Positions 5,496-32,447 of a stretch of 32,447 nt of DNA are shown here, piece by piece (within the stretch, counting starts at the first letter, position 1; each line of letters begins with the position of its first letter). Under the pieces are notes generated by a model that worked only from the letters and a program-made list of their open reading frames with translations, did no database searches and was not told where the DNA came from. Where the stretch lies: assembly GCA_913009315.1 (NCBI GenBank), contig CAJVZA010000015.1, positions 1 through 32,447 on the forward strand, written 5' to 3'. The stretch is from an uncultured Hippea sp. GTDB taxonomy: Bacteria; Campylobacterota_A; Desulfurellia; JAADFJ01. The position numbers and the translations under genes are program-made.

Positions 5496-6395
5496 ATGAC
5501 TAACAGACTTGCAATTGATATAGGTTACGGCGACACAAAGGTATGTGTCGCCTCAGATTCGCAAAGCCATAAATACTTCAAATTTCCAACTGCCATAAGC
5601 AGGCAGAAGGAATCCATGGCGGACTTTGGAGATAATGCCGGATATGTCTATAACGGTGTTCGTTATAATGTAGGCAAACAGGCAGTTTCGGATGCTTTTA
5701 CTACGAGGGGCTTTGATTTTATGGTCAAATATGCTCCGTTGATAGCCTATCATGCCTTCGGCAGCAAGCTCAACGGGGCTGAGATTGCGACAGGGCTTTC
5801 AATAATCAACTGGAGCGAAAGACAGCGCTATTTCGATGCGCTTTCAAGGATTATCGTAGATAGCAAGGTTGTCGTTCCCGCAAAAGTTGTTCTTTATGCG
5901 CAAGGACAGGGCATTATCGACCGTTATCATGGTGATAAGTCCGGATTGATATGCGTTGTTGACATAGGATATAACACATTTGATTTCCTTGTATTCGAGG
6001 ATGGCAAACCAAGCAAGGAGCTTTCATTTGCCACAAATCAGGGGACAAACAAGATTGTTACCGACCTTCAGGCAATTATCAAAAAGCGATTCAACGTTGA
6101 TCTGCTCGAAGCGGAAGCGAAAGAAATATTTGAGAACAAAAAGATGGTGATGTATTCAAACGAAATAGATTTGTCGGATCATATAACCGAGGCACTTGAT
6201 TTTTACAATGAGTTTATTATTAATGAGGTCAAATCGAAACGTATAGATGTTCTGCGCAAGGCAAAAAAGGTGATTTTTGCCGGCGGCGGAGCATATTATC
6301 TTGAGGACAAGCGGTTGCCGGGTAATGCAATATTTATCGATAATCCTTATGAGTTTGCAAATGTAAGGGGATATTATGAGCACAAAAAAGACTGA
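5496..6395 (+). CDS. parM: ParM-like plasmid-segregation actin ATPase
   Basis: A 299-residue protein. The frame extends upstream to a TTG at 5427, but the ATG at 5496 has a strong AGGAGG and starts directly at the first actin motif. The phosphate-1 motif AIDIGYGDTK (D8), the phosphate-2 motif VVDIGYNTFDF (D156) and the adenosine motif IFAGGGAYYLE (near residue 260) are all present, as in the actin/ParM/StbA family. Such proteins polymerise into filaments that push plasmid copies apart when bound through an adaptor to a centromere. The next gene overlaps by 20 bp and fits the adaptor. Partition genes in an integrated element suggest that it passes through a replicating circular stage. Confidence 0.85.
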   Translation: MTNRLAIDIGYGDTKVCVASDSQSHKYFKFPTAISRQKESMADFGDNAGYVYNGVRYNVGKQAVSDAFTTRGFDFMVKYAPLIAYHAFGSKLNGAEIATGLSIINWSERQRYFDALSRIIVDSKVVVPAKVVLYAQGQGIIDRYHGDKSGLICVVDIGYNTFDFLVFEDGKPSKELSFATNQGTNKIVTDLQAIIKKRFNVDLLEAEAKEIFENKKMVMYSNEIDLSDHITEALDFYNEFIINEVKSKRIDVLRKAKKVIFAGGGAYYLEDKRLPGNAIFIDNPYEFANVRGYYEHKKD

Positions 6396-8138: not shown

Positions 8139-8371
8139 CAATAAAAGATTGTACCCATAAGCTAAGTTGCAAACACGTAATAGGCTGTTCTACGCTGACA
8201 TATGAGATGGATTGTGTTATCCTAAAAAAGATGCCGGATGGCAGATTAAAAATATTAGTTTTTGGGGACAGGTATTGGAACAGACATGACGAGAAAAAAA
8301 GAATTAGGTACGTTCACTCTAACCGTATATCGGCAAAACAAATAGACAATAATTTTAGAAGGTTTTTATGA
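8120..8371 (+). CDS. Small basic protein of unknown function
   Basis: An 83-residue protein from ATG 8120 (a GTG at 8114 is also in frame). It overlaps the Sel1 gene and ends 4 bp inside traT, so it belongs to the operon. It has no signal peptide or membrane segment. It contains three Cys and several strand-like stretches (DCVILKKMPDGRLKILVFGD) reminiscent of a small beta barrel. No family recognised. Confidence 0.55.
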   Translation: MAKRVITIKDCTHKLSCKHVIGCSTLTYEMDCVILKKMPDGRLKILVFGDRYWNRHDEKKRIRYVHSNRISAKQIDNNFRRFL

Positions 8372-9102
8372 GGAGATGGGTTAAAGGCATTCTGTTTGTT
8401 ACTGCAGGGTTATTTTTAACTTTGCAATTCAGCGGATGCGCTCAGGTGGCAACGGGAATTGAACATGCGAAACTGGAAACATCCGCAAAGATGAGCAAAA
8501 CTGTATTCTTAAATCCGGTTCGTCCCGATCAGAAAACAATTTTCGTTCAAGTGAAAAGTACTTCGCAGGTGCCGATGCCCAATCTTCAATCTGATATCGT
8601 TAATTATTTGACGGCAAAAGGATATGAGATTATTCAAGATCCATACAAAGCGCATTACTGGCTTCAGACAAATGTGCTGTATATGGGTAAAGAAACCAAA
8701 CATCTTACAATGGCAGGCGCATTAGCAGGCGGATTCGGCGGCGCCCTGATAGGTTCGGCATTTGGAAGCGGATATGGCAAACTCGGCGCTATGGGAGTCG
8801 GCAGTATGATTGGTACAGGATTGGGCATGATTGCCGGAGCCGCTATACATGTTGACAAGTATATGGGCATTGTGGATGTTCAGGTAAAAGAGAAAGTCAA
8901 CGGAAATATCCAGGCCAAAATGACATCTAATCTTAAACAGGGAACAGGAACAACTTACCATACTACACGTACTTTAAATACTTCATATCAGGCATACAGA
9001 ACAAGGGTTGCGGCCGAAGCAACACAAACCAATATGAATCTAAAAAAAGCCATTCCGGTGCTTGAGAACAAGATTGCAAGAGAGCTTGCGGGGATATTTT
9101 AA
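8368..9102 (+). CDS. traT: TraT surface-exclusion lipoprotein
   Basis: A 244-residue protein with lipobox FSGC (Cys near residue 24). It follows the TraT family throughout: KLETSAKMSKTVFLNPV after the signal, the TIFVQVKSTS strand, LTAKGYEIIQDPYKAHYWLQ, a long Gly/Ala-rich hydrophobic segment (about 110-165) and a C-terminal region with YQAYRTRVAAEATQTNM and PVLENKIARELAGIF. In F-like plasmids TraT is an abundant outer-membrane lipoprotein that blocks stable mating with cells already holding the element, and it can increase serum resistance. It closes the overlapping envelope-gene operon. A CTCTC/GAGAG dyad about 30 bp downstream might end transcription but lacks a clear U-tract. Confidence 0.9.
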   Translation: MRRWVKGILFVTAGLFLTLQFSGCAQVATGIEHAKLETSAKMSKTVFLNPVRPDQKTIFVQVKSTSQVPMPNLQSDIVNYLTAKGYEIIQDPYKAHYWLQTNVLYMGKETKHLTMAGALAGGFGGALIGSAFGSGYGKLGAMGVGSMIGTGLGMIAGAAIHVDKYMGIVDVQVKEKVNGNIQAKMTSNLKQGTGTTYHTTRTLNTSYQAYRTRVAAEATQTNMNLKKAIPVLENKIARELAGIF

Positions 9103-9184: not shown

Positions 9185-9571
9185 ATGAATACTGAATTAT
9201 CAGAAATTCAAGACAACTTAAAAAATACCGTTTCAGCCGAAATATCTTTATTAAATGAAGGCGTAAACCGTTTTCGTGTATTTACTCCGTTTGAATTTGA
9301 AGATGGTGACCATTTTTCGATTATCTTAAAGAAAGATAAAGACTCTTTTATTTTTACAGATGAAGCGCATACAATTATGCATATGAGTTATGATATGGAT
9401 GTTTCGGTTCTAAAAAAGGGGAATCGCCAAAAAATATTAACAAATACCATTTCTAACTTTGGACTTGAGGAAAATGAAGGGGAGCTTTTTATCAGGGTTA
9501 ATGATAATAATTTTGGAGCAGCTTTTTATAATTTTGTGCAAGCACTTGTAAAAATTACAGATTTACGATGA
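9185..9571 (+). CDS. DUF1828-like protein
   Basis: A 128-residue cytosolic protein, ATG start with a purine-rich GGGGGA upstream. The pattern RVFTPFEFEDGDHFSIIL, FIFTDEAHTIMHMSYD, a repeated LKKGNRQKILTNTISNFG and a C-terminal FYNFVQALVKITDL matches the DUF1828 layout. Its biochemical role is not established. It sits convergent to a toxin-antitoxin pair, in an accessory patch between two conserved element modules, and such proteins often occur in mobile-element cargo. Confidence 0.55.
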   Translation: MNTELSEIQDNLKNTVSAEISLLNEGVNRFRVFTPFEFEDGDHFSIILKKDKDSFIFTDEAHTIMHMSYDMDVSVLKKGNRQKILTNTISNFGLEENEGELFIRVNDNNFGAAFYNFVQALVKITDLR

Positions 9572-9715
9572 TTTTAGGTGAGGCAATTTGGAGACTTGAC
9601 TTTTTTAAACGATTGTTCTATATTAGCTCTATCGGGCTTGCTGGTTGCCCATAAGTCCTGGTAATAAGGTCAAAAATCGGCACAAAAAATATTGAATTAG
9701 GTTTCCCTAATAGAA

Positions 9716-10063
9716 TTAGAATGGCATCTTTTGGTGGTTTCTTGTATATTCCTTTACTCTCGCTCGATCTTCATTTTCTTTATTACCCTTGAAATACAAC
9801 TCAATAAACTCAATTCGTTGTTCTTGCTCAAAATACGCATAAATAATGCGAAGCGAAGAACCTTTCAGGTATTTGCAAAACAAACGAGCTTTCACAATAT
9901 AAAAAGTTTCAGTTTTAATAATAATGTTAAAATGTTTGCTGTTGCCAAGAGGAATGACAGAAATTACATTGCAAAACTCTTGTAAATCTTCGGGCAGAGA
10001 TTTGTATTTTTTGGCAAACCGTTTAAATTCTTTTTGAAATTCCGGTAAGCGATTAAAGTTCAT
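9716..10063 (-). CDS. RelE/ParE-fold toxin of a Panacea-type TA pair
   Basis: A 115-residue basic protein that overlaps the upstream antitoxin gene by 11 bp. It has the RelE-like order: N-terminal helix FQKEFKRFAKKYKSLPEDLQEF, then beta strands including FYIVKARLFCKYLKG and SLRIIYAYFEQEQRIEFIELYFKGNKENED, and a basic tail. The motif IEFIELYFKGNKENED is common in small mRNA-interferase-like or gyrase-type toxins. It should be neutralised by the adjacent Panacea protein and help retain the element. Target and cleavage specificity cannot be told from sequence. Confidence 0.7.
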   Translation of the reverse strand: MNFNRLPEFQKEFKRFAKKYKSLPEDLQEFCNVISVIPLGNSKHFNIIIKTETFYIVKARLFCKYLKGSSLRIIYAYFEQEQRIEFIELYFKGNKENEDRARVKEYTRNHQKMPF

Positions 10064-10820
10064 CGCCGTAATTTCTTACGGAGTATCGTTCATCACGATA
10101 AAAAACACTCTCATAAGAAAGCGGCTTACCGTTTTGCGCTATTTTCCATGGAATATCTTCATGTGAATAATTTTCTATTTCCGCAGCATTTTTATCGGAA
10201 AGACGCGCTAACACATTGTCAATATGATCAATTTCCCGCGCTGAAAGAATATCAAGATTCGGGCGTTTGCGCGGCAGATATTTTTTCTGTAAATACTTAA
10301 AATACTGACTTTTAACGGATTCAATTTCACCCTGTTTCTGCATTTCTTTCAATATTTCACCAAGCTCAACAGAAGTGGGACCGTGATAATTTTTGATATA
10401 AGTCGCTCCCATTAAGTTTTCCTCAAATTTTTCGTAATAATCAAAGTCAATGAAATAAAGAAGTTTATGCAAGACTGTTTCACCGACATTCGGCTTGCAT
10501 CCAACCTTATTCAGGATATAAAGCAAAACCTGCTTTAACTTGTCAAGATTTTTTTCTGTAACACGAATTTGCAGATCTTCAGATTTCTTCACAGGCTCTT
10601 TTTTGATAGACACGTTTCGCTTGGGTTCTTTCTCGGCAAGAAAACTTTCCAGCGACATATCAAAAAGAGACGCAAGTTTTTTTGCTTCGGATATCGTAAG
10701 TTCCCGCTTCCCGCGTTCAATTTGCAAATAAGTTGGGCGAGACATACCAAGCTCTGAGGCAACATATTCTTGCGTCATGTTTCGCTTAACGCGTTGTTGT
10801 TTGATAAATTCTGCAAGCAT
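10053..10820 (-). CDS. Panacea (DUF4065) antitoxin with N-terminal HTH
   Basis: A 255-residue protein starting at an ATG preceded by AGGAGG. Residues 5-60 form an Xre-type HTH (RVKRNMTQEYVASELGMSRP then LQIERGKRELT). From about 95 to 240 comes the Panacea/SocA-like domain with LHKLLYFIDFDYYEK and ATYIKNYHGPTS. Panacea proteins are established antitoxins for many unrelated toxins, and the HTH normally represses its own operon. The toxin gene follows with an overlap, the standard order for this class. A good sigma70-type promoter lies 37 bp upstream. Confidence 0.8.
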   Translation of the reverse strand: MLAEFIKQQRVKRNMTQEYVASELGMSRPTYLQIERGKRELTISEAKKLASLFDMSLESFLAEKEPKRNVSIKKEPVKKSEDLQIRVTEKNLDKLKQVLLYILNKVGCKPNVGETVLHKLLYFIDFDYYEKFEENLMGATYIKNYHGPTSVELGEILKEMQKQGEIESVKSQYFKYLQKKYLPRKRPNLDILSAREIDHIDNVLARLSDKNAAEIENYSHEDIPWKIAQNGKPLSYESVFYRDERYSVRNYGDEL

Positions 10821-13041: not shown

Positions 13042-13542
13042 TCATATTGTTATTTCTCCATGTGTGACATAGATCACCAATCCGCTTGCAATCGCAATGG
13101 CGAATGCAACGGCGTATTCCGTCTGACTGCCGGTATAAAATAAACTCATTGTGAACTTGTGTTTACCAATCGGTATTCCGCCCGGTGTCATTGCGTCTGT
13201 GGCAAGATGCACAAAAATGCCCCATAATGCGCCCCAATAAGCATCTGTAATGACTTGATCCGGGTTGAGATTGATGAAGTGTGCAACAGGATACAGGCTT
13301 GCGATTATTGCGGGAAGCTTGAACCGCAAAACCGCATAAACAAGCACAAAAACAGCAAGCCAAACCAGTGGATTGTGAGAGTTGCCACGGTGCTTGAAAA
13401 TGCTTGTGTTGGTGCGGTAATTGTGTATTTCGGCGGCATCAGGAACAGTTGCAAAGAGGATTGCAACCGATGAAAAAGCGATTGAGTGAGTGAGAGCCAA
13501 GCCGGTAGCACCGGCTATTAGCTTGTGGTTGATCCATTTCAT
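13042..13542 (-). CDS. YdjM/DUF457-like membrane-bound metal-dependent hydrolase
   Basis: A 166-residue protein from ATG 13542 (a GTG at 13545 would add one residue). It has four hydrophobic segments with family-typical polar motifs: an early His (ALTHSIAF), HRGNSHNPL, and DAMTPGGIPI near residue 118. The family belongs to the LexA-linked YdjM group of predicted inner-membrane hydrolases, whose substrate is not established. Its ATG overlaps the stop of the truncated iscB frame (TGATG), so translation is coupled to the remnant. No role in conjugation is known. Confidence 0.7.
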   Translation of the reverse strand: MKWINHKLIAGATGLALTHSIAFSSVAILFATVPDAAEIHNYRTNTSIFKHRGNSHNPLVWLAVFVLVYAVLRFKLPAIIASLYPVAHFINLNPDQVITDAYWGALWGIFVHLATDAMTPGGIPIGKHKFTMSLFYTGSQTEYAVAFAIAIASGLVIYVTHGEITI

Positions 13543-13787
13543 CACATTGTGCGGGAGACCCCGACACTGATGTCGGAGAGGGATAGCGCCATTCCCGCTG
13601 TCTTGCTTCCAGGGTCAAGTTTCAGTATAAGCGGTTGAATGCTGCCGCCTATTCTGTCTTTAAGCCTGATCGTAAACGGATAAATTTTATGCACTACCGC
13701 CCGTCCGCGCTCAAGAAGAAGTCTTGCCCGTTTCTCAGTACACGGCATCAGCGGCCGTTTTCTTTTGTCCAAAACAAATACTGCCAT
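13542..13787 (-). pseudogene. iscB: Truncated IscB (PLMP domain and RuvC-I only)
   Basis: From ATG 13787 (GGAG seven bases upstream) 81 codons encode the IscB N-terminus: VFVLDKRKRPLMPCTEKRAR gives the PLMP motif, and LILKLDPGSKTAGMAL gives RuvC-I with catalytic D58 intact. The frame then runs straight into sequence with the hairpin CCGACA-TCAG-TGTCGG (13576-13561), typical of a transposon right end, and stops. Bridge helix, HNH, RuvC-II and RuvC-III are all missing. It is an internal-deletion derivative, and the protein cannot cut DNA by itself. The guide RNA region upstream seems intact. Confidence 0.85.
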
Positions 13788-14075
13788 TTTATCTCCTGTT
13801 GTCCTTACGGACATTGTTACACGCCATCTCTGGCGTCTCCCCTCGGGAATGTTGGCAACCGGCTTCGGCTGTGCCTTGGCAAAAACCGTTTCGCGGATAC
13901 CCGAACCATGTCTGCATCTTTGCCTTCCAGAGCCTGGGACTGAGGAAGCATCCCAGTGTGGGTCTTATACCTATTGCCAACGTAGCCGTATTCACTTGGG
14001 ATACGGGGCTCTCCCTGGTCACCCTCAAGCTTCAAGCTCCGTCCTTCAGGACGGGGTAGTTGACGCTATCGTGCC
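13545..14075 (-). mobile_element. Mini IscB element (IS200/IS605-type ends, non-autonomous)
   Basis: It is bounded by the left-end sequence GCGTCAACTACCCC (about 14067-14054, minus strand) with its hairpin and by the right-end hairpin at 13576-13561. There is no TnpA or TnpB. Only the omega RNA and a short iscB start remain, so it could move only if helped in trans by a Y1 transposase. Exact ends are uncertain by several bases. Confidence 0.6.
13790..14073 (-). ncRNA. Omega RNA (IscB guide RNA) of the truncated element
   Basis: The minus strand upstream of the iscB start begins GCGTCAACTACCCC followed by the hairpin GTCC-TGAA-GGAC and GGAGCTTGAAGCTTGAGG. The rest is a long, GC-richer, strongly structured tract with no convincing reading frame, for example GGATGC-CTCA-ATCC-type and GCCAAGGCACAGCC stems. 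IscB omega RNAs lie just upstream of the protein gene, and the guide segment is at the RNA 5' end, at or outside the element boundary. Here the guide would come from the end of the 42-aa ORF. The equivalent region before the full IscB at 23484 shares the GTCAA-TACCCC opening. Confidence 0.75.
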
Positions 14076-15750: not shown

Positions 15751-16227
15751 TTATTTATCTGAGATAATATTATGTATCTTTATTATATCTCTAAATACAC
15801 TCATATCAAAATTTAGAAAGTCTATTTTTCTATCAATTATTAATTCTTTCATTCTGTTTTCGGATGTGCCGAATATGTTGCAGACACCGGTTAACAATTT
15901 TTTTCGTTTCTGAAATGTTCGGCGCGCATTTGAAATACTTTTTGAGATAGACTTTCTTATTACTCCGAAATACCTTGTATTTTCGGCAATCGAATTTCGG
16001 ATGCTTGGATACATTTTGAGAATAAATCGTTCAGCAGAATGGAAATCGTTAACAACATTATTCCTATTGCAACCTGGATATGTGTACTCAGGTATCCATT
16101 TTTTTGTCATAGACTGCATTATCATTGTCTCAATCCCCTCTTCCCTTTTGCGTGTTTCCTCGTATGTGTAGATTCTTGCTTCAATTTTTGCTATTTCTTT
16201 GTCTTCATCCGTCATGTCGTCTTCCAT
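15751..16227 (-). CDS. Unknown protein downstream of the coupling-protein fusion
   Basis: A 158-residue protein, ATG start with AGGAG upstream, 17 bp after the 1336-aa gene on the same strand. The N-terminal third is acidic and helical (DEDKEIAKIEARIYTYEETR). The middle is basic (KSISKSISNARRTFQKRKKL), and the end is strand- and helix-mixed. No signal peptide and no recognised family. Its position at the end of the relaxation/coupling operon and beside the repeat-rich region suggests a relaxosome accessory protein, by inference only. Confidence 0.6.
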   Translation of the reverse strand: MEDDMTDEDKEIAKIEARIYTYEETRKREEGIETMIMQSMTKKWIPEYTYPGCNRNNVVNDFHSAERFILKMYPSIRNSIAENTRYFGVIRKSISKSISNARRTFQKRKKLLTGVCNIFGTSENRMKELIIDRKIDFLNFDMSVFRDIIKIHNIISDK

Positions 16228-16244: not shown

Positions 16245-19200
16245 TTAATACTTAATTTTATATATGTTTTTGACAATGCGTGTAGATTCTTGCTTTAATT
16301 TTTTGAATTGTGCCTTTTCATTGTCGGTAAAATTGAATGCTTTTTCTAATACAGGGATATAGTATCCTGTCGCTAATTTTTGACCTTTTTTGTTGTATAA
16401 AAAATATTGTTTGCTGAATTTTTCATGATCTATTTCATTGCCAATATATTCTTTTAATTCCAGATTATTTTTAATTGCAAGGGCAATTCCGTTTCGTTTT
16501 GCAACCGATTTATTTTGTTCGACAAAATCATGTTTCCCTTTTTGTTCTGCAATTTCCGTTGCTATATCAGCGATCAGTTCCGGCATGACATACACACGGC
16601 CGTCTCCAATATATATAGCCCTTACGAAATTCTTTGTTCCCGTTATTATGTTTGTTGATTTTTTGATCTCATCAAGGATTGTCCCAATGTCCTTTTCGTC
16701 TATCCAACTTATTATTGGTTCGGATGTTCTTTCCGTATCTGAAATTTCCTTGTTATTTTTTTTTGCCTGGAACTGTTTTATAGCATTTGTAACCTCTTTT
16801 GCTCGTTCCGGGTGTTCTGCTTTGTATTTCTCTAACTCATCTTCTCGTGCTTTTGCATCCGCCTGTTTTAACGCTTTAAGCTCAAGCGAATCGGGTTGTT
16901 TCGGGTTTTCCCTGTTATGATGATTTGATATGGCAATATTTTTGATATTGAACATAGTTTCATTTTTTATCAATTTTAACACAACCGCAATTGATAAAAC
17001 GGGATGAGCAAGTGTCTGGGCTGTAAAATCGCCTTTATGCTTATATATTTTGTTTATTTTTCCTATGTCATGAGCAAGGGCGACTATGTATATCATCGCT
17101 TTTACGCTTGGTAAAAGCTTTCCTTCTTTGCTTGTATTATCTTGCCGCAGAGCTTCATATATGGGAACTATATTATTTGCAACATCGCAGGTATGCTCTG
17201 CGAGTGTTATTACGCTTAGGATATTGTATGTCGTTATCGTGTTATCTTTTTTCTTCACATAATCAAACTCCTTTCCTTTAATAGACGAGCAATCTCCGTA
17301 TTTATCCAGCAGTCCGAGCAGATAAGCAATGGCTGTTTTCTGCTCATTGTTCTGCATTACAATTTCAAGGGGTTTTATTTTTTCATTGTAAAATTTCTTT
17401 ATATACGGATTTAAATAACTGCGGTTTGATATGTCAATTTCTTTTAACAATTTATCAATTAAATCAAGCTCATTTTGCTGTTCATCTGTTGCCGTTTCAT
17501 CCTTGTCTAATATACTTGCCTGTTCTTTTTCTTCTTCGGCCTTGGCGTATTCGGCGGGATGGGAAGTTGGATCGTTGTCCTTTTTGAGCTGGCTTAAAAG
17601 CCATGGAATATATTTGTCGGTGTGATTTATTATTTCTTTTTTGTAATTTAGGCTGCCGGGCACGAATATATTAAAAATATTTGTTAATTGCAAAATCTTT
17701 CTTAATACCTTAGAACGGCTTGGCAGATCCGTATAAGATATAAATTTAAGGACAGCATACGCAAACAACAGTGCAAGTATGCTTATTTCCACCGTAAATG
17801 TGAAGTGAAATGATTTTGCAAATTGAAGCAACTCAAGCCTATACAGCTGAATATGAAGCGACAGAAGCGAATGCGAGTCAATTTTGGTGTATATAACAGA
17901 GAAAATCGGTATAGCCAATAAAAACAGCGCAAGAAAGATAGCCGGTTTTGCTATTAGTTTTTTTAATTTATATTTTCTTTTTACTCCATTGGCAAACGAG
18001 TTGTATGTTTCCGTCCATTTTTTTGCCCAATGTTTTGTTTCATCCATCCATAGCTGCGACAATGCGCTAAGGTTTATGGTATTATCGGATTGTTTACCTT
18101 GCTCTTGTTTTTTGGTTACTCTATCCGGTAAATTTATCTCAGGCAGATCAATATGATATTTAACAGGCGTTGCATTAAGCGTAAGTCCTTTAAACTTACC
18201 CTCATAAGTAAACAGATAGAACTCACGCTTTTGAAGTGTTGTAAGATCATCCGACACTACAAGAGGTTCTTCGACTTCCCTCACCGTAATACCGCCGCCA
18301 AGTGATAATATTGAACTAAACCGTTTCTCTTTGCCGGAATAATCAGATACATACTTTGCGGTATCCGGGTCATTTACACGCATGAATATCTTTGTGTTCG
18401 TGTTATCTAATATTTTTCTTGCAAAAGGCTTGCCGATTTCAGCTTCCAGATCCGAGATTGACTGAGTGAATGCGTGTATCATCACATTTGCGCCGCCGGC
18501 TTTGCTGAACATCTCCTCTATGCCGAGATACATAAGGGCGGCTGCCTCATCCATGTAGATTGCAAGCGGATTTTCAAGTGTTTTTCCCGATGCGTATAAT
18601 CTGCCGATGAAACTTTGTATCATCGAAATCAGCACCCTTGAAATCGTGCCTGCCGTTTTTCTCGTCAGCATACTTCCCGTCTGCGCAACAAGTATAACCT
18701 TCTTGCCTTCTGTCAGCCTTTCGATAAACTTATTGGCGTGAACGGTTCCTATAATGTCGCCGGCAGAACCGGTTGAGAGTGCGGTTAAAACGGTTCTCAA
18801 TGATGATGACACCTTTGCGAAATAATCTTGAGGCGATTTGACTATCTGATTTAGTGTTACAAGTGTTTCCTGCGCTCTTTGCGATTGGTTACCCGACAAA
18901 TCAGTAACGAGATCTTGCAATTTGTCTATACTTATATTTTTTCTGATGTCATTGAAATTCATTCTTGTGGGCGTTACATCTTCCTGTCTTAATGTACCCT
19001 TATCTATTTGTTTTTGCTGATCTTCCTTATTTTTTTCTATGAGCGCCATGACTACCGCAAGAGTCGTTTCGTATGCCACATTTATGAAAAATTCTTCTTT
19101 TGCTTTAATACCCGATACGACATGGCTTACTATTTCCTCAGGCATGTAATAATGGGCCAGCGGATCTATTTTATTTGATAGGGGCGGATAGATCGGGTTG

Positions 19201-20255
19201 ATAAAAAACAGATCCTCTGCCCTGTTATTTTCCAATGCGCATTGAACGATTTTCTCTGTAATATCAATATCGCCCTTAGGGTCAAACAGAACAACCGAGT
19301 TTCCCTGCTCTATATCCTGTTCAATCATAGACTCTATCAGCCTTGTTTTACCTATCCTTGTTGACCCGAAGCAAAAAGTGTGTCCGGCTCTGTTTTTATT
19401 ATTAATACGCAGCTCTATCAATTTTTCAGGATGGCCTATTTTGTAGCCCATGCCTAATGTTACAAAGTTGTCCTCCTTTTTAATGTCAGATATGTTAAAT
19501 CCTGTCTTTGTCTGTCTGTTCAGATTTTGTTTTATTTTTATCTTCTTGATTGTGTGCGCCATAAATACGGAAACAAAGGGTATAAGAATGGCAATAATAA
19601 ACACAACTGCCGTTTCTACGGCCAATATGGGAAGTTTATTGTGAAGTATTATTACCATTCCATAAATGATTGCAGGATTATGCGGAGATAAAAAATGTGA
19701 TATTTTGTCAGCCGCATGGGGAGTCAAAAGACCTGCAACTATATTGAACAGGAAAAACACTATAACAAGCTTTATGACAAGCAATAATATTCTGCCCCAG
19801 AGCAGCGAATCTATTGCGCTTTTAGTAATTGAACCAGTGTGATATTTACTCAGATACGAACATATCCCTACCGACATGATAACAGGCGCCAGGCTGATAA
19901 AATAGATTAAGAATTTGAGAGTAACCGGTCCTCTTCCCGGAATATGGCTCAACAATTTGTGCAGAATTACAGGGTCGTATAATATCGGAACAAAAAACAG
20001 GGTTAGAAAAATAAACATCAATCCCTCGGTAAGCCCTGTTTTTATACCGATGTTAAAGAAATTAAGCGAACCCTTAATTGTAAGAAAATCTTTCGATATG
20101 CCCCTGCCGCTGCTTTCCAGCACATAGAACTGCTGAATTTTAGATACAGCGTCTAATATGCCTTGAGGCTTGCTGTTGTTGTTCCCTTTTTCGTCTATAG
20201 GGATAATTACATTGCTTCCACCTGAATCATCTGCCATTTTTTTCTCCTTGTCCAA
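16245..20255 (-). CDS. Fusion of a VirD4/TraD coupling ATPase with an HD-hydrolase (possible MobH-like) domain
   Basis: 1336 residues in one uninterrupted frame. Residues 70-235 hold about four membrane segments. The TraD/VirD4 motor follows: Walker A GSTRIGKT (297-304), LFDPKGD (323-329), Walker B LAIYMDEAA (564-572), and IHAFTQSISDLE (593-604). After about residue 710 comes a second membrane pair (770-790 and 822-842), a charged linker (880-930) and an HD domain: AEHTCDVA (H1021), ALAHDIGK (H1062-D1063), H1084 and NHH (1112-1113). The C-terminal part GDGRVYVMPELIADIA (near 1217) resembles the region after the HD core in TraI_2/MobH relaxases. Coupling proteins pump DNA into the T4SS, and MobH relaxases use an HD-type metal site to nick oriT. 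The HHx motif that usually precedes the MobH HD core is not evident, so relaxase activity is a hypothesis. No other relaxase is seen in the window. Confidence 0.85.
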   Translation of the reverse strand: MDKEKKMADDSGGSNVIIPIDEKGNNNSKPQGILDAVSKIQQFYVLESSGRGISKDFLTIKGSLNFFNIGIKTGLTEGLMFIFLTLFFVPILYDPVILHKLLSHIPGRGPVTLKFLIYFISLAPVIMSVGICSYLSKYHTGSITKSAIDSLLWGRILLLVIKLVIVFFLFNIVAGLLTPHAADKISHFLSPHNPAIIYGMVIILHNKLPILAVETAVVFIIAILIPFVSVFMAHTIKKIKIKQNLNRQTKTGFNISDIKKEDNFVTLGMGYKIGHPEKLIELRINNKNRAGHTFCFGSTRIGKTRLIESMIEQDIEQGNSVVLFDPKGDIDITEKIVQCALENNRAEDLFFINPIYPPLSNKIDPLAHYYMPEEIVSHVVSGIKAKEEFFINVAYETTLAVVMALIEKNKEDQQKQIDKGTLRQEDVTPTRMNFNDIRKNISIDKLQDLVTDLSGNQSQRAQETLVTLNQIVKSPQDYFAKVSSSLRTVLTALSTGSAGDIIGTVHANKFIERLTEGKKVILVAQTGSMLTRKTAGTISRVLISMIQSFIGRLYASGKTLENPLAIYMDEAAALMYLGIEEMFSKAGGANVMIHAFTQSISDLEAEIGKPFARKILDNTNTKIFMRVNDPDTAKYVSDYSGKEKRFSSILSLGGGITVREVEEPLVVSDDLTTLQKREFYLFTYEGKFKGLTLNATPVKYHIDLPEINLPDRVTKKQEQGKQSDNTINLSALSQLWMDETKHWAKKWTETYNSFANGVKRKYKLKKLIAKPAIFLALFLLAIPIFSVIYTKIDSHSLLSLHIQLYRLELLQFAKSFHFTFTVEISILALLFAYAVLKFISYTDLPSRSKVLRKILQLTNIFNIFVPGSLNYKKEIINHTDKYIPWLLSQLKKDNDPTSHPAEYAKAEEEKEQASILDKDETATDEQQNELDLIDKLLKEIDISNRSYLNPYIKKFYNEKIKPLEIVMQNNEQKTAIAYLLGLLDKYGDCSSIKGKEFDYVKKKDNTITTYNILSVITLAEHTCDVANNIVPIYEALRQDNTSKEGKLLPSVKAMIYIVALAHDIGKINKIYKHKGDFTAQTLAHPVLSIAVVLKLIKNETMFNIKNIAISNHHNRENPKQPDSLELKALKQADAKAREDELEKYKAEHPERAKEVTNAIKQFQAKKNNKEISDTERTSEPIISWIDEKDIGTILDEIKKSTNIITGTKNFVRAIYIGDGRVYVMPELIADIATEIAEQKGKHDFVEQNKSVAKRNGIALAIKNNLELKEYIGNEIDHEKFSKQYFLYNKKGQKLATGYYIPVLEKAFNFTDNEKAQFKKLKQESTRIVKNIYKIKY

Positions 20256-20327: not shown

Positions 20328-20960
20328 ATGAATGCAAAAAATCTTAATGACGGCGAAAGACAATTGTTGGAAGATATTATCAATTTATTTCTTGGATATT
20401 ACTATTCGCTGATAAGTATCGATTACAACGGGGATGCGTTTAAGCTGGGCAAAAAGAAACAAGTTATGTTTGAGAGAAAATTTCTAAATAAACATATTGA
20501 AACGCTGAGTTTTGATATTAAAGAAATTATGTCTTTCTTTTCAACACAACGAATTTTTGCAGAGAAAAAGTTTTTGAAACATCATATAATACGGGGAAAA
20601 ATAGCAGGTAGGCGTAATGATTCATACATTGTTTCTTTTCGTAATAGCATAATCGGCATCTTGCCCGATCGTCTATCTTTAAAGCAAGATAATTATATGT
20701 ATAAAGAATCCTTTTGGTTTTATGTTCGCAGCGTTAATTTTGATATTGGCAATAATTATCCAATAAAATTAACGCTCGATAGAAAAACTAATATGCTGCC
20801 AATTTTATTACTCAAGAAAAAATATCCAGCTGGAAAATTCAGATGCAAAAGATTTCTCGGCGATAAAAACGTTATATATTCTAATGTTTTTGTTCATGCG
20901 GAAGATATTAAAGCTGTCCAAAAAGATGTCGGTGAAAAAATTATTTTCAAAAAAAATTAA
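20328..20960 (+). CDS. S1/KH-like RNA-binding protein, reminiscent of a NusA fragment
   Basis: A 210-residue protein, ATG start. After a helical N-terminus (1-80), residues about 87-155 follow an S1 barrel pattern: HHIIRGKIAGRRNDSYIVSF, then IIGILPDRLS, FWFYVRSVNFD and PIKLTLDRKT. The next ~50 residues (KYPAGKFRCKRFLGDKNVIY then HAEDIKAVQKDVGEKIIF) look like a KH-type unit. NusA has the same S1-then-KH order. The gene diverges from the coupling gene and lies directly before the pilin operon, so an antitermination or post-transcriptional role for the long tra transcript is attractive. The family call is by pattern only and may be wrong. Confidence 0.45.
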   Translation: MNAKNLNDGERQLLEDIINLFLGYYYSLISIDYNGDAFKLGKKKQVMFERKFLNKHIETLSFDIKEIMSFFSTQRIFAEKKFLKHHIIRGKIAGRRNDSYIVSFRNSIIGILPDRLSLKQDNYMYKESFWFYVRSVNFDIGNNYPIKLTLDRKTNMLPILLLKKKYPAGKFRCKRFLGDKNVIYSNVFVHAEDIKAVQKDVGEKIIFKKN

Positions 20961-21032: not shown

Positions 21033-21392
21033 ATGATTTTTGGTCAATGTGTTAATGCAGTTCGCAGAGCTGTGAGATTGAAAAGGAAGGGGAAAGGTAT
21101 GTCACTTATGTCACTTGCAGTTGTTATGAGTAGTTTCATGATGAGCAATACTGCTTTTGCCGGAACGACACCTACTACTACCGATGCTTTTTACAGTTTG
21201 TACCAGCTGATAATTAATTGGGTGAGCGGGGCGCCGGGTATAATTGGAGCGATCGTGATACTGATCGTAGGAGTCTACGGATCTATGTTCGCAGGCAAAT
21301 CTCCGATGTTTTTCTTTGGTGCCGCGCTTGGAGCCGGATTGATATTCCTTCTCCCGGGGATTGCCACCAGTTTGGCAGGAGCAACTTTTTAA
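21033..21392 (+). CDS. traA: F-type/VirB2-like pilin precursor
   Basis: A 119-residue protein, ATG start with AGGAGG. A long basic leader (residues 1-43, RRAVRLKRKGKGMSLMSLAV) ends in the AFA cleavage site, leaving a ~76-residue mature pilin. That contains two hydrophobic helices (APGIIGAIVILIVGVYGSMF and FFFGAALGAGLIFLLPGIAT) joined by the short AGKSP loop, the standard TraA/VirB2 layout. It is the first gene of the plus-strand transfer operon. The assignment rests on size, leader and helix pattern. The sequence itself is diverged. Confidence 0.75.
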   Translation: MIFGQCVNAVRRAVRLKRKGKGMSLMSLAVVMSSFMMSNTAFAGTTPTTTDAFYSLYQLIINWVSGAPGIIGAIVILIVGVYGSMFAGKSPMFFFGAALGAGLIFLLPGIATSLAGATF

Positions 21393-21393
21393 T

Positions 21394-22158
21394 ATGTATA
21401 GAGGCAAGAATATTGCCTTATTCGTTTTGGCTGTAGTAAGTCTCGCTACAGCCTTAACGGCTAATGCAGCAACTGTTTGCAGCGGTATTAATTTGCGGAA
21501 AAACATTAATCTTCCGCCATATAAAATTATTAGTCAAAAACCTGTAATTAACAATTCATTATGCCAATCTATTTTATCAATTCAGACTCCGCGGGGTAAA
21601 CGACCTGTAATTTTTTATTCTACTAAAAATTTTACTTTGGTAGGTATGTTGTTTCATAATGGACAAAATATAACCCGAAATACTCAAGTAAAAGCAGGCA
21701 GCTTACAATTCAAATCGATTTGGGCAAAATATAAAGATAAACTTCCGGGTGTTGTTGCGGCAGTCTATACGCCCAAGCAAGCCCGAAAAGGTCGGATAGT
21801 GTATGAGATAGCCGATCCTAATTGTCCGTTCTGCAAACGAATGAAGATACCGACTAAAAAATTTGCAGACAAATACGGCTATATCGTAAAGTTAATATTC
21901 TTTTCTTTCGAACGTCCGTCAAGTCCAAAAAAAACATCTAATTTTATCTGTGATCATAGAACATTTACTGACTATTTTACAAACGATCTCGGTACTAAAA
22001 CCTGTAAAAAAGGTGATGAATACGTAAAGAAAGCAAATCGGATGGCTCAAAATCTCGGAGTAACCGGCACGCCGACATACATATTCGTTAAAACCGGCAC
22101 AAAACTGGTCGGAGCCAATCCAACAGGATTGGAAAATTTAATGAAAGAAAGAAAATGA
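21394..22158 (+). CDS. Periplasmic DsbC-like disulfide isomerase
   Basis: A 254-residue protein. ATG 21394 is chosen because it lies one base after the pilin stop and begins a signal peptide (cleavage after TANA, residue 25). The thioredoxin fold carries DPNCPFCKRM (C144, C147) and the cis-Pro loop GVTGTPTYIF. The N-terminal ~100 residues resemble a DsbC dimerisation region. Two extra Cys (ICDH and KTCKKGDE) match the second disulfide of DsbC. Such proteins isomerise disulfides in Cys-rich T4SS components and are often encoded in F-type and R27-type transfer operons. Confidence 0.85.
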   Translation: MYRGKNIALFVLAVVSLATALTANAATVCSGINLRKNINLPPYKIISQKPVINNSLCQSILSIQTPRGKRPVIFYSTKNFTLVGMLFHNGQNITRNTQVKAGSLQFKSIWAKYKDKLPGVVAAVYTPKQARKGRIVYEIADPNCPFCKRMKIPTKKFADKYGYIVKLIFFSFERPSSPKKTSNFICDHRTFTDYFTNDLGTKTCKKGDEYVKKANRMAQNLGVTGTPTYIFVKTGTKLVGANPTGLENLMKERK

Positions 22159-23483: not shown

Positions 23484-23755
23484 CGACTGCGTCAATTACC
23501 CCCCGTTGAAACGGGGAGCTTGTGGTGGAGAGACGAACTTATCATGAGCCTCGTTAGAGAGTAGTTGAACGTGGGTATATACCGATACGGTTTGTCTGCA
23601 TATATGTTGCAGACAAAACAGACGTTGCAGGGCGACACTCCCAGCTCTGCGAGACAGAGGTGCAATCCCTTGACCTTACGTATGGTATATCGGTATGCCT
23701 CAAGGAGACAAACCATTTTTTTAAATGCCCTGATCATAGGGTTATAAGAGGTTAT
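23484..23755 (+). ncRNA. Omega RNA for IscB
   Basis: The region between the left end and the iscB start is structured and shares with the mini element the opening GCGTCAAyTACCCC, a C-rich/G-rich hairpin (CCCCGTTGAAACGGGG at 23501-23516) and GAGCTTG. Further stems include GTTTGTCTGCATATA-GCAGACAAAAC-like pairing around 23588-23615. The RNA would scaffold the IscB protein. Its guide is expected at the 5' boundary, reading the end of the preceding gene and the TTTAC target. Confidence 0.75.
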
Positions 23756-25285
23756 GTGAAGATAATTTTTACAGAGGACAAATTGGGTAATGCAGGTCAT
23801 CCTACAAGACGGTTCGACCAAATTCGTAAACTAATTAAACGCGGTGAGGTTAAGATTATAGGAGGCGGCACGTCCGGTAAACCGGTTGTAGCAATGTTTC
23901 TTAAAAAGACCTTTAATCGGTCTAAGACTATTGACAGAAAGTTTGCTATCACAGTTTCTCCCGGCTACAAGACTATCGGTTTTGCTGTAGTCGAGGCGAA
24001 AGACAATCACATGGATATTCTCTACAAAGGAGAATGTGAGACCGGTATCGATAAGATCCGCGGCAAGATGGATGACAGGAGAACCCACCGCAGACGCAGA
24101 AGATATCTGGCAAGATTCAGAAAACGCAGAATGGCAGAAAAACATAATCGTCCGCTTGCCAAGTTTAAAAAACCGAGAAACATAAGGTCCATACACAAAA
24201 CAAATGTAACATTGCAGTATGGTGTCAAAGTTCATCTCAACCTTTACGATAAGCTTTTAAAACTATGTCCTTTGCCGGCAGAGCAGACAACAAAGATAAT
24301 GGAGGCAAATACATTTAACATCAGAAAAATGACATGGGGCGCTTGTTACGGCAAAGAATATAAAGTATCCCCACGTATCACTCCTTACATCCACACAGAC
24401 ACCCACACTCACACACATCACTCACACTCACACAGTTCACCGCCAAAGGTATGCTTTGTTTGCGGATCAACCGAACACCTTCAAAAGCACCACCTCATCC
24501 AACGAAAGCAGCGTGGTACCGATGTATCTGAAAACTTGATATTCTTATGTAAAAGTTGTCACGAAGATGTTCATTTAGGGCATATCTATCTGCCTATAGC
24601 AGGTATGGATATTAAACAATGGAGAGCGCTTGGAACTATGAATGCCATAGCAGGTAGTTTACAGCATAAGTATAGTGACGATATACATTTTATCCCCGCC
24701 TACGATATGGCGGCATACAGACGAGAACTCGGATTATCCAAAGACCATGATACAGATGCGGTTGCCAATGCAATGTTGTTTTTTAAATGCAGTTATCTTA
24801 CGAATACGCCCATTCATACGATATTTAAAAAGGTAAAGCGACATAGTAGGGCAAGGATACACGCCCTAAGAGAAAGACATTACAAGCTTGATGGTAAGAC
24901 TGTAGCTTGCAACCGTAGAAAGAGAACCGATCAGAAAGACCATCCGTCATTAAAAGAATTCAGACAACAGAATCCATCGCTGGTAGGCAAGCTGAAGGTC
25001 TATCCCGGAAAGAAGTCGCTTAACCCTTTTCGGAAAAACATGCCAACTATTACAGGTGATGTATGGACAACCGACACAAATAAGGGCAATGCAAGGTTTG
25101 TTGCCAACGGTGTTACCGATAAAGTGTATCTGTATTCTCCTATGCTGACAAATATTATAAGCAAAAACTATATCAAACCGGACAGATGCAGGCGAATTAT
25201 CAGGCATGAGGGCATAGTTGTCATGCAAAACCGATTGCAAAAGCCGTTTATGCAATCTCAAATTAAAGCGGGAGGTTTATTATGA
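23756..25285 (+). CDS. iscB: IscB RNA-guided nuclease, RuvC-I Asp replaced by Ser
   Basis: 509 residues from GTG 23756 (AGAGG just upstream). The frame extends further up but only through the omega RNA. A diverged PLMP-like region (1-60, GHPTRRF in place of PLMP) is followed by RuvC-I FAITVSPGYKTIGFAVVE (67-80), where S68 replaces the usual catalytic Asp. The Arg-rich bridge helix is RTHRRRRRYLARFRKRR (109-125), and RuvC-II has E183. A His-rich insert (212-227) precedes an HNH with C233/C236, H245-H246, N260 and C265/C268-H269. RuvC-III HDTDAVANAM keeps H331 and D334. A ~170-residue C-terminal part would bind RNA and target. With HNH intact and RuvC compromised, it may be a nickase. Its stop overlaps the next gene's ATG. 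Confidence 0.85.
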   Translation: MKIIFTEDKLGNAGHPTRRFDQIRKLIKRGEVKIIGGGTSGKPVVAMFLKKTFNRSKTIDRKFAITVSPGYKTIGFAVVEAKDNHMDILYKGECETGIDKIRGKMDDRRTHRRRRRYLARFRKRRMAEKHNRPLAKFKKPRNIRSIHKTNVTLQYGVKVHLNLYDKLLKLCPLPAEQTTKIMEANTFNIRKMTWGACYGKEYKVSPRITPYIHTDTHTHTHHSHSHSSPPKVCFVCGSTEHLQKHHLIQRKQRGTDVSENLIFLCKSCHEDVHLGHIYLPIAGMDIKQWRALGTMNAIAGSLQHKYSDDIHFIPAYDMAAYRRELGLSKDHDTDAVANAMLFFKCSYLTNTPIHTIFKKVKRHSRARIHALRERHYKLDGKTVACNRRKRTDQKDHPSLKEFRQQNPSLVGKLKVYPGKKSLNPFRKNMPTITGDVWTTDTNKGNARFVANGVTDKVYLYSPMLTNIISKNYIKPDRCRRIIRHEGIVVMQNRLQKPFMQSQIKAGGLL

Positions 25286-25599
25286 AAATTAAACGGGAAA
25301 CAAATTCGCTACATCCCCTATCTAAAGAAAGGGGTATTGCGAATGGGATTCATAAGTTTGGAATGGTTATACTTTTATTGATCATAGTTCAACGTTATAT
25401 GCCCGGCGCATATTATACGGGCGATACCGTTAATTATATTTATGAAAGAGTATGGGCTATTGATCAACCGAAAGCGCATACTCGATTAACTTATAAAACC
25501 AAAACGCTTACGGGTAAAGAAAAATTATATCGTAATTCATTGTTAAATTTCAAATCTAATATCCTTCGAAAAATGGCAGGCGGCGGTTTTGATAAATAG
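25282..25599 (+). CDS. Small membrane protein with an IscB-element-derived N-terminus
   Basis: A 105-residue frame whose ATG overlaps the iscB stop (TTATGA), with GGGAGG upstream. The first ~20 residues read through the element's right-end hairpin. The native part starts about GIHKFGMVILLLIIVQRYMP with one membrane segment, then a basic, strand/helix-mixed periplasmic or cytosolic tail (KAHTRLTYKTKTLTGKEKLY). It ends 11 bp inside trbC. The original start is probably the ATG at 23472. Not recognised as a named Tra protein; the place between envelope genes and TrbC suggests a T4SS part. Confidence 0.6.
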   Translation: MKIKRETNSLHPLSKERGIANGIHKFGMVILLLIIVQRYMPGAYYTGDTVNYIYERVWAIDQPKAHTRLTYKTKTLTGKEKLYRNSLLNFKSNILRKMAGGGFDK

Positions 25600-26395
25600 A
25601 ATTATTTTACTTTTATTTCTACTTTTTACTTTTGATCTTTCTTATGCTGCCGGTACTGATAATTTCAGCGCCGGCAGTGGCGTTCAGCTTAAAAACAATT
25701 ATTTCAAACAAAAAAAGAATACAAAAAAATATCAAAAATTATTGAAAAATTTTCATAACAAATATACATCTGAAGCAAAAAGCCTTGCGCTGCATGATTA
25801 TGTAGATTTTCAAAACAATATAGCCAAGCAAATGAAAAATATGAAGAATATAGTCAATTCTTTTGCAGGTATTCACCCAACAAAGAAATCTGTTCAATAT
25901 TACAATAATTTCTTTCGTAATACCGATAGACTTTATATATTCATATCAAGCAGCATTCCAATCAGCACCCTTCGCAATTATGCGCAGATTGTAAGCATTC
26001 TTAAAAATAAAAATATCTATTTTGTGATGAGGGGATGTGTAGATAGCTGTCATACAATAGCGCCGACTAAAGCCTTTATACATCAAATTATTGCACTTAA
26101 CAAAAAGGGAAATAAGGTTTTGCCGATTATTCACGGCATACAAATAGATCCTCTTTTGTTCAGATTGTATAATATTAAGCGCGTACCTGTTTTTGTGTAC
26201 GCAAAGAATGTTAATCCTCTTAATATTACAAGAAGTCAGGGGTGGCTGAAGAATCTTTCAGGTACTCCAGTATTTTATAAAAGTGCGGGTGACTGGTCAT
26301 TTAAGTATCATATTGAACAACTTGCGGATATGAGTCGGTCTCAGGAATTGGCGGATTTATATCATCAGTTGAATCAAAACTGGTACACGAGATAG
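25589..26395 (+). CDS. trbC: F-type pilus assembly protein TrbC
   Basis: A 268-residue protein with a signal peptide (cleavage near SYA, residue 20). The TrbC signature is clear: LYIFISSSIPISTLRNYAQI (about 115-134), FVMRGCVDSC, then IIHGIQIDPLLFRLYNIKRV with PVFVYAKN, a thioredoxin-like fold in which the partner protein decides the fold of F-pilus assembly factors. TrbC works with TraW in the periplasm for pilus extension. The N-terminal ~95 residues are Lys/Asn-rich and unlike the family. The ATG/GTG-type start overlaps the previous gene. Confidence 0.85.
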   Translation: MINRIILLLFLLFTFDLSYAAGTDNFSAGSGVQLKNNYFKQKKNTKKYQKLLKNFHNKYTSEAKSLALHDYVDFQNNIAKQMKNMKNIVNSFAGIHPTKKSVQYYNNFFRNTDRLYIFISSSIPISTLRNYAQIVSILKNKNIYFVMRGCVDSCHTIAPTKAFIHQIIALNKKGNKVLPIIHGIQIDPLLFRLYNIKRVPVFVYAKNVNPLNITRSQGWLKNLSGTPVFYKSAGDWSFKYHIEQLADMSRSQELADLYHQLNQNWYTR

Positions 26396-26397
26396 TT

Positions 26398-26625
26398 ATG
26401 TCTAATCAAAAAGGTTATATTCATATCATTGTTATTACAATAATTTTAGCGATTATATTTTCATTGCTTTTTTTGTTTCCTAAAACCAAGGAAGCTATCA
26501 GAACAGGGATGGAATCTATCGTGCAGAATGCTCCTGCGGCCAAAAATAAAATCAATGCGGCCGACAGCAGGCTGAGTAATTCCATCAAACAAATTACAGG
26601 AAAAATCAATGCGCTTGGCAAATAG
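26398..26625 (+). CDS. Small single-span membrane protein
   Basis: A 75-residue protein starting 2 bp after trbC and overlapping traF by 17 bp. One strong N-terminal membrane helix (IHIIVITIILAIIFSLLFLF) is followed by an amphipathic, helical tail (AAKNKINAADSRLSNSIKQI). No family recognised. Tight packing indicates a small T4SS accessory protein. Confidence 0.6.
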   Translation: MSNQKGYIHIIVITIILAIIFSLLFLFPKTKEAIRTGMESIVQNAPAAKNKINAADSRLSNSIKQITGKINALGK

Positions 26626-27745
26626 GATTTTCGTATCTCTTATATTACTGTTTTCATCTGTCAATCTTTATGCAGGCAGATTTAATCCTGCGTCAAATTT
26701 TGTTAACGATGATAACATTGTTAACAATAATCAGCTTCAAAAAAGTATATCATTATTAAATCAAAATATAGAACATGAAAAAGAAAAATCCTTTATCTCA
26801 AATATCAAAATAGGCAATGTTGTTCAATATCAAAACAGAAAATATAAAATCGATAAAAATAAAAACAATCTAATTTATTTATGCCCTTATTATACAAATA
26901 ATTTTTACAGCAGTCATAATTGGGGCTGGTTTTACGGTAAGGATTGTTTATGGATAGATAAAGTTAAACTTGCAAAAAATAAATATGAAAAACAGATTGA
27001 GAAATTTGCAAGCGAGAAAGATCTGGAAAAACAGATTCCATGGTTGAAAATAAACAATAAACAGTGGCTTGCTACCCGCAGCATTCCTGAATTTCAGCAT
27101 TATTTCAAGATATTAAAAAATATAGCAGTAATAAAACCAACGCCGCGCAATATGCAGGCGTATATGTCGATGCAGGATATGGCAAGGCGTAAAAGTGTGG
27201 TTTTTGCTCACAGCATGGTTAATTTCGTATTGGATCATCCCGAATATAATATGCAGAAGAATTTCGGATCAAACGGCTGGTCGTACCGTACTTTAAAGTC
27301 TTATCACAGCAAAGTAAAAAAGAAATATCTGTCCGATAACAGTGGGCGTGTCGGTATCTATCTTTTGATTAAGGGTAATTGTCCTTACTGCAATCAACAG
27401 GAAAAAGTATTGAACTGGTTATCGGCAGATTACAATTTGACAACGGTTTTAGTTACAAAGGATTATTGTCCCGCCAACAGTAAGATGACTTGCGTTGTAG
27501 ACTCGGAGTTATCAAAACTGTTTCACATAAAATATTTCCCTACAACGGTTATGGTATATAAACGCAGTAATGGCAAACCGGCCTTTCAGCCTGTCGGATC
27601 GGGGCTGATTAACGAGGAGCAGCTGTCTAATCGTTTATATTATTATACAAAAATTATCAAAGCCGTTGACAATGGCAACAATAATCCTTATGTGCCGGTT
27701 CAAACCGTCACTCAAAATATCAATATCAATCGGAGTTTGCGTTGA
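26609..27745 (+). CDS. traF: Conjugal transfer protein TraF (thioredoxin fold)
   Basis: A 378-residue protein, signal peptide with cleavage after YAG or LYA (residues 20-23). The TraF family block GRVGIYLLIKGNCPYCNQQ carries a CPYC pair (C258, C261). The long N-terminal part shows the usual Trp-rich segment (HNWGWFYGKDCLWID) and WLATRSIPEF. The C-terminal thioredoxin half contains IKYFPTTVMVYKR with the cis-Pro. In F plasmids TraF is a periplasmic T4SS protein, without the active-site pair. Here the redox motif is present, so it may be enzymatic. It is about 100 residues longer than the F-plasmid version. Confidence 0.85.
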   Translation: MRLANRIFVSLILLFSSVNLYAGRFNPASNFVNDDNIVNNNQLQKSISLLNQNIEHEKEKSFISNIKIGNVVQYQNRKYKIDKNKNNLIYLCPYYTNNFYSSHNWGWFYGKDCLWIDKVKLAKNKYEKQIEKFASEKDLEKQIPWLKINNKQWLATRSIPEFQHYFKILKNIAVIKPTPRNMQAYMSMQDMARRKSVVFAHSMVNFVLDHPEYNMQKNFGSNGWSYRTLKSYHSKVKKKYLSDNSGRVGIYLLIKGNCPYCNQQEKVLNWLSADYNLTTVLVTKDYCPANSKMTCVVDSELSKLFHIKYFPTTVMVYKRSNGKPAFQPVGSGLINEEQLSNRLYYYTKIIKAVDNGNNNPYVPVQTVTQNININRSLR

Positions 27746-28167
27746 AAATATTAAAGAAGTCTCTTTTTATTTTCGCTATTATTCTCTTTGCTTCCAATTC
27801 TTATGCTGGTCGGACTAATTTTCTAATAAACCATGCCGATAAGATAGGCTTATATTTTTTTTATGATGCAGCTTGTGAATATTGCCACATGCAGCTGCCT
27901 ATAGTAGAGCAGCTGCATAAAGCATACGGAATCAGCGTATTGATAATTAGTGAAAATGGTTGTCCGACCGCAAAAGACTTACCGTGTTCGGATCATCCCG
28001 AACTGTTTACCAAATTTCACGTGATATATCATCCTGTAATAATAATGGTTTATCGCGGTCAGTCGGGCAAACCGATATTTCATCAGATCGGCATAGGATT
28101 AACTGATTTTAATACGTTAACAAGTAGAATTTATTACTACACCAAGCATCGGCAGGGAGGCAACTAA
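27742..28167 (+). CDS. Second TraF/TrbB-like thioredoxin protein
   Basis: A 141-residue protein overlapping traF by 4 bp, with a signal peptide (cleavage near SYA, residue 22). The thioredoxin motif is AACEYCHMQ (C45, C48) in IGLYFFYDAACEYC. The later part IISENGCPTAKDLPC and YHPVIIMVYRGQSGKPIF parallels the C-terminal half of the neighbouring TraF, including the GCP/DYCP insert. It looks like a duplicated and shortened TraF domain. It may be the reducing or oxidising partner of TraF/TrbC/TraH, as TrbB is in F. Confidence 0.8.
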   Translation: MKILKKSLFIFAIILFASNSYAGRTNFLINHADKIGLYFFYDAACEYCHMQLPIVEQLHKAYGISVLIISENGCPTAKDLPCSDHPELFTKFHVIYHPVIIMVYRGQSGKPIFHQIGIGLTDFNTLTSRIYYYTKHRQGGN

Positions 28168-32280: not shown

Positions 32281-32447
32281 AGATCGGAAGAGCGTCGTGT
32301 AGGGAAAGAGTGTAGATCTCGGTGGTCGCCGTAGCATTAAAAAAAAAAATATATTTCTTCTTCTCTCTTTTTAACTTTCTCGCCATCCATCCATTCTTGT
32401 CCCTAGAAGTCCTTTCATCTAGCATTCTCTGGAAGCACTCATTACTT
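32281..32447. other. Illumina adapter read-through and low-quality tail (artefact)
   Basis: AGATCGGAAGAGCGTCGTGT at 32281 begins a TruSeq universal adapter in reverse complement that continues to about 32338 with about one mismatch, then a run of A and a pyrimidine-rich low-complexity tail. The translated phrases SEERRVGKECRSRWSP and YTLSLHDALPIS are well-known adapter peptides. Nothing here is genomic. Confidence 0.97.

Follow-up and report, generated by a model that had tools for sequence, protein, structure and literature searches.

The window analyzed here, a 32,447-nt stretch that makes up the entire contig CAJVZA010000015.1 of a metagenome-assembled genome (MAG; 1.74 Mb, 87.6% complete) of an uncultured Hippea species, carries a gene that joins a multi-transmembrane (multi-TM) domain, a TraD/VirD4 coupling ATPase and an HD metal-binding domain in a single polypeptide. 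Comparison with homologues identifies split genes as the ancestral state and this three-part fusion as a derived and uncommon form of a widespread module. The fusion, the module and the conservation of the module are well supported. Because related elements lack any of the known relaxases that were searched for, the HD protein is, on gene context, a leading candidate for the missing nicking enzyme.

The fused gene and its relatives

An earlier, sequence-only reading of this DNA described one 1336-residue protein uninterrupted by a stop. This was confirmed: the frame is open from 20255 to 16245, with no stop among its 1336 codons, on the minus strand, a detail that the earlier reading did not give. 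The first start codon is TTG; an alternative ATG at codon 7 (position 20237) is probably the true start, since AAGGAG lies just upstream of it, and the protein would then be ~1330 aa long. The Walker motifs, a second membrane pair after the motor and the residues H1021, H1062-D1063 and H1112-H1113 were all correctly placed, and H1084 and D1133 complete the HD set. From the N to the C terminus, the parts of the gene are as follows.

16245-20255, minus strand: whole fused gene, 1336 codons from TTG (probable ATG start at 20237)
19506-20255, minus strand: N-terminal membrane domain, residues 1-250, with five predicted hydrophobic segments within residues 71-233
18123-19493, minus strand: TraD/VirD4 coupling ATPase core, residues 255-711, with matches to Pfam TraG-D_C and TrwB_AAD_bind
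19344-19367, minus strand: Walker A, GSTRIGKT, residues 297-304 (G and GK invariant in alignment A1)
18540-18566, minus strand: Walker B, LAIYMDEAA, residues 564-572 (DE invariant in alignment A1)
17748-17966, minus strand: second TM pair, residues 764-836, predicted at 764-782 and 818-836
16821-17213, minus strand: HD domain, residues 1015-1145, with a PF01966 match at 1019-1136
16248-16724, minus strand: C-terminal domain, residues 1178-1336, conserved in relatives and a separate gene in Desulfosarcina BuS5

The N-terminal membrane domain (hydrophobic segments predicted at 71-89, 115-133, 156-174, 195-213 and 215-233) is homologous to the TM subunit, which relatives make from a stand-alone gene (about 240-270 aa) and one version of which had no Pfam match. 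A proposed identity of this subunit with DUF4400 of MOBH elements was ruled out, as the sequences show zero similarity. Walker A and B, the TraG-D_C domain and a TM anchor, the features expected of a coupling protein, are all present. The motor shares the Walker motifs and TraG-D_C with SXT_TraD (TIGR03743; E 5e-46), but it lies far under the cut-off of that model (157.4 vs. 366 bits) and is therefore classified by its sequence as a coupling protein outside the SXT_TraD subfamily. In contrast to SXT_TraD, the TM domain of the motor's relatives is a separate gene, their TraD core having no membrane domain of its own, and the window adds an HD enzyme. The position of the second TM pair corresponds to the N-terminal membrane anchor of stand-alone HD proteins; since most of these possess such a TM segment, the pair is best read as the HD-protein anchor kept in the fusion. 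Within the C-terminal domain, N1202 and P1301 are invariant (alignment A5). The end of the gene also contains one copy (16280-16303) of a 24-nt direct repeat, 96% identical to a second copy in the next open reading frame (ORF; 16166-16189). The origin of transfer (oriT) was not located, and the repeats near the fused gene could not be interpreted.

Genome loci related to the fused gene (n = 80) were collected by a search with the TraD core, and tblastn of plasmids gave split versions. The HD gene lies directly downstream of traD at 70 of the 80 loci, overlapping it by 4 nt in 25; at five of the remaining 10, the contig stops within about 300 nt of traD. At most loci the TM subunit gene belongs to the same cluster, either upstream of traD or right after the HD gene. 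Translational coupling between such neighbors is common. Adjoining but distinct genes encode the TraD core and the HD protein in Desulfosarcina BuS5, Campylobacter iguaniorum, Nitrosophilus, C. upsaliensis, Geobacter, Pelobacter and Aliarcobacter, and the TM-domain homologue, where detected (BuS5, both Campylobacter, Nitrosophilus and Aliarcobacter), is also its own gene. These plasmid-borne pairs are direct homologues of the fused gene (the TraD core is 62% identical in BuS5), present as two genes vs. one polypeptide in the window. Existing annotation labels their TraD members no more than TraM recognition or TraG protein, and their HD members no more than HD, diguanylate cyclase or hypothetical protein. 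Among viral contigs, a single sequence closely related to the TraD core turned up.

A survey for the same fusion elsewhere, as the earlier reading had proposed, found two-part TraD-HD fusions in two other MAGs (L038, 1105 aa; L059, 1147 aa), in which the TM gene stays separate. Because such fusions recur, no missed stop or frameshift between motor and HD domain is needed to explain the window's gene, and with the frame open this possibility was ruled out. The view that a coupling ATPase and an HD enzyme share one polypeptide, with no known relaxase found nearby, is borne out, and seven complete plasmids with the unfused pair, six of them free of MOBH, P, F, Q and V relaxases, strengthen it. 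In a quick tree of 92 rows, which contains long branches including the window's own, well-supported branches force two origins, suggesting that fusion arose at least twice independently. Repeated fusion of adjacent genes is a classic sign of products that act together.

The HD domain and its kin

Residues H1021, H1062, D1063 and H1084 occur in 78 of 78 aligned sequences, and H1112, H1113 and D1133 in 96-97%. An extended H..HD..H..H..D set is diagnostic of a dinuclear metal site (HD superfamily review, PMC8177086), and the HD domain of the fused protein is, as judged by its residues, intact with the full dinuclear-type set. Structure prediction of the HD half (AlphaFold, mean pLDDT 77), another check that had been suggested, did return HD-type matches, mostly generic HD proteins, but nothing in the PDB at E<0.001; the top match was the HD-GYP-like Bd1817, and it was weak. 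The C-terminal domain likewise gave zero PDB fold matches at E<0.001.

The sequence-only reading assigned the HD half to the MobH relaxases, pointing out that the genes for HD relaxase and TraD are adjacent in known MobH systems. We saw the same adjacency in the MOBH elements examined: in SXT/R391, IncC, IncHI and the gonococcal genetic island, where TraI-TraD pairs mostly accompany F-type or G-type transfer systems, an HD metal enzyme gene likewise adjoins the TraD gene. However, the HD gene lies upstream of traD in MOBH elements and downstream here, where in the window it is fused into the motor, and the present HD family is membrane-anchored. None of its 37 members matched TraI_2 (PF07514) or the MobH models NF041494 and TIGR03760 at E<=0.1; with NF041494, true members of MobH reach 292-427 bits. 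The 3H motif belongs to the definition of MOBH (PMC12857230). This motif, PASExxHH....GGLLxH, is invariant in eight MobH proteins, and the HD family keeps just its last H (H1021); the HD motif H1062-D1063, invariant in the family, is a trait not specific to MOBH. On the profile models and the missing 3H motif, membership of the HD half in MobH was rejected. Of the overall interpretation, the fusion and the lack of a known relaxase nearby have stood, and the MobH identity has not.

In profile-profile alignment, MobH (12 sequences) matched the family with a probability of 95.8% (E 7e-9) across H..HD..H..AD. Controls taken mostly from the window's phylum scored comparably (HD-GYP, 96.5%, E 9e-10; YhaM, 90.2%), and for this reason the likeness to MobH is placed by the alignments at the superfamily level. 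The C-terminal regions of the two families are collinear over most of their length, yet 3 of 60 column shuffles outscore the alignment, and what likeness the C-terminal domain bears to the MobH sequence after its HD domain is no more than suggestive. One Xanthomonas MobH sequence compared with solved structures gave no match. Cas3''/Cas10 and HD-GYP proteins have in common with the HD half the superfamily and the H..HD..H..HH..D type of residues, but the Cas match is sub-threshold (TIGR01596, 40.1 bits vs. a cut-off of 43.45) and non-specific, and the family alignment lacks a GYP motif after HH. A Cas3/Cas10-like nuclease showed early promise, which was removed when the HD-GYP and YhaM controls matched Cas3 models too. 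As a separate observation, chromosomal YhaM-like HD proteins (L105-L123, L002) obtain weak TraI_2/MobH scores via HHxxxGGLLEHT and are a source of false MobH calls.

Candidates for the nicking enzyme

No relaxase family appeared among the ORFs of the window that were scanned, which were not all of its ORFs, in agreement with the earlier reading. The host genome, 87.6% complete, contains no MOBH, MOBF or MOBP protein above cut-off, and at E<=0.01 MOBF and MOBP still find nothing; its sole TraI_2 match is sub-threshold and belongs to a chromosomal HD protein with YhaM-type homologues in the phylum. The seven complete plasmids that carry the module, all with the HD gene beside traD and unfused, have no TraI_2 match and no MOBH, MOBP, MOBF or MOBQ protein above cut-off. 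MOBV was found in Aliarcobacter only, leaving six of the seven without MOBH, P, F, Q or V. A Pfam search with 34 larger proteins encoded by the C. upsaliensis plasmid, most of them unannotated, matched 31 families, and the 25 of these that were listed include no relaxase. An all-against-all comparison of six complete plasmids (Pelobacter represented by 200 of 202 kb) found the type IV secretion system (T4SS) genes, the TraD/HD/TM cluster and one Cas4-like PD-(D/E)XK protein in all six, and a UvrD helicase in five. This context, with a conserved cluster and no tested relaxase, favors the HD protein as the relaxase.

Our preferred explanation, held with slightly less than even confidence, is that the HD half is a membrane-anchored DNA-processing (relaxase-like) enzyme docked on the motor. 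The fused gene would represent the one-piece form of a three-protein coupling module (multi-TM subunit, TraD motor core and membrane-anchored HD phosphodiesterase) that belongs to the F-type conjugation systems of Desulfobacterota, Campylobacterota and related groups. The HD half would nick or trim the transfer DNA strand at the motor entrance, so that cleavage and pumping would be kept in one complex and the enzyme would remain in the donor membrane rather than being carried along with the DNA. It is the near-constant pairing with traD, the two fusion origins, the conserved metal site and the absence of the tested relaxase families from six plasmids that we count in favor. Gene context is what points to site-specific nicking at oriT, and we infer in the same way that the substrate would be DNA, that the action would take place at oriT and that the HD enzyme would not be translocated.

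Several observations weigh against this explanation. The similarity of the HD sequence is not DNA-specific, as Cas3-HD profiles also pick up the HD-GYP and YhaM controls, and the C-terminal domain has no recognized DNA-binding fold in the PDB fold search. In C. iguaniorum and Nitrosophilus, a GGDEF domain lies inside the traD-linked HD protein (E 6e-34 and 2e-38, respectively). A short HD-less protein in which the N-terminal motif and the C-terminal region are preserved is encoded by two Desulfosarcina elements, a resemblance judged by eye with profile scores that are not significant, and the rest of the two genomes yielded no gene of the HD family; such elements may be defective, may use another relaxase or may dispense with HD activity. 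The Cas4-like protein is universal in the six plasmids and is their sole other nuclease-like family. Finally, nothing found in this analysis showed transfer of these elements. The proteins concerned are located as follows.

L006, 22698-25100: HD protein carrying GGDEF
L007, 22644-24935: HD protein carrying GGDEF
L030, 5301-5909: short HD-less protein, upstream of the TM and traD genes
L033, 5272-5888: short HD-less protein in two ORFs, upstream of the TM and traD genes
L125, 33617-34570: Cas4-like PD-(D/E)XK nuclease
L171, 13951-14895: Cas4-like PD-(D/E)XK nuclease

In a serious rival reading, which we nevertheless judge unlikely, the HD domain would be a phosphodiesterase of nucleotide second messengers whose task is to gate or sense the motor, with something else serving as the relaxase. 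The GGDEF-containing members suit a signaling role, HD-GYP proteins of the same phylum give the best profile match, ahead of MobH, and the weak top fold match is HD-GYP-like. However, the family has no GYP motif, most of its members lack GGDEF, no other relaxase turned up in the searches made, and a regulator would have to be present almost without exception, be coupled in translation to traD and have merged with TraD on two occasions. Less probable again, and likewise a serious rival, is a model in which the relaxase is some other protein, such as the Cas4-like nuclease, and the HD protein assists the coupling complex as an accessory factor. MOBC relaxases are PD-(D/E)XK enzymes, which lends some weight to the only other nuclease-like family found on all six plasmids, and the C. 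upsaliensis protein matches both PDDEXK_1 and Cas_Cas4. Yet the Cas4-like gene is away from traD, and since it sits in a region with the SSB gene in Campylobacter and BuS5 (plus Bet in Campylobacter), its neighborhood suggests a role in recombination. The possibility that the fusion unites TraD with a genuine MOBH relaxase, one that has diverged very far in sequence, is quite unlikely: the HD motif, the TraD adjacency, the profile alignment and the collinear C-terminal regions are in its favor, but the 3H motif is absent, the MobH models match no family member, and the HD-GYP control scores equally well.

Genomic surroundings and significance

Other genes of the window, among them F-type transfer genes, are listed below; the tyrosine integrase is consistent with an integrative one.

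3865-5019, plus strand: tyrosine integrase
5427-6395, plus strand: actin-like protein of the ParM/StbA type, shared with five of the six complete plasmids compared
8368-9102, plus strand: TraT
20328-20960, plus strand: divergent ORF of 210 aa with no family, starting 72 nt from the fused gene
21033-21392, plus strand: pilin-like TrbC/VirB2-TraA protein (sub-threshold match)
21361-22158, plus strand: thioredoxin-fold, DsbC-like transfer protein
25589-26395, plus strand: TrbC, F-type pilin assembly
26609-27745, plus strand: TraF, with a second short TraF-like ORF at 27742-28167
28167-29705, plus strand: TraH
29707-32334, plus strand: N-terminal part of TraG, truncated by adapter sequence at the contig end

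An RRXRR plus HNH (IscB-like) gene (23660-25285) is inserted inside the transfer operon, and a second RRXRR fragment lies at 13542-13814. Small ORFs at 9185-10820 match the PADLOC candidate defense models PDC-M24B and HTH/PDC-M69A. The last stretch, 32281-32447, consists of Illumina TruSeq adapter (58 nt of read-through with one mismatch) and, after it, ~110 nt of unrelated sequence; the contig end is thus an artefact, and the TraG ORF terminates in an adapter-encoded peptide.

Many T4SS loci have no recognizable relaxase, and unknown relaxases were listed as one explanation for them (Guglielmini et al., 2011; PMC3158045). A 2025 review states that no covalent DNA intermediate has been found for MOBH and that the recruitment of such DNA to the motor is an open question (PMC12857230). 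No title or abstract in the literature searched describes a TraD-HD fusion or a traD-HD gene pair. The fusion of motor and HD domain, together with the widespread traD-HD pair in elements that lack other tested relaxases, offers a specific, testable candidate for both questions. The stronger proposal sees in the HD protein a conjugative nickase of a new class outside MOBH, membrane-anchored within the coupling motor or next to it and retained in the donor, and we regard it as rather doubtful. If true, it would account for a group of F-type systems that lack a relaxase ("MOBless") and would show that transfer can proceed without a relaxase pilot.

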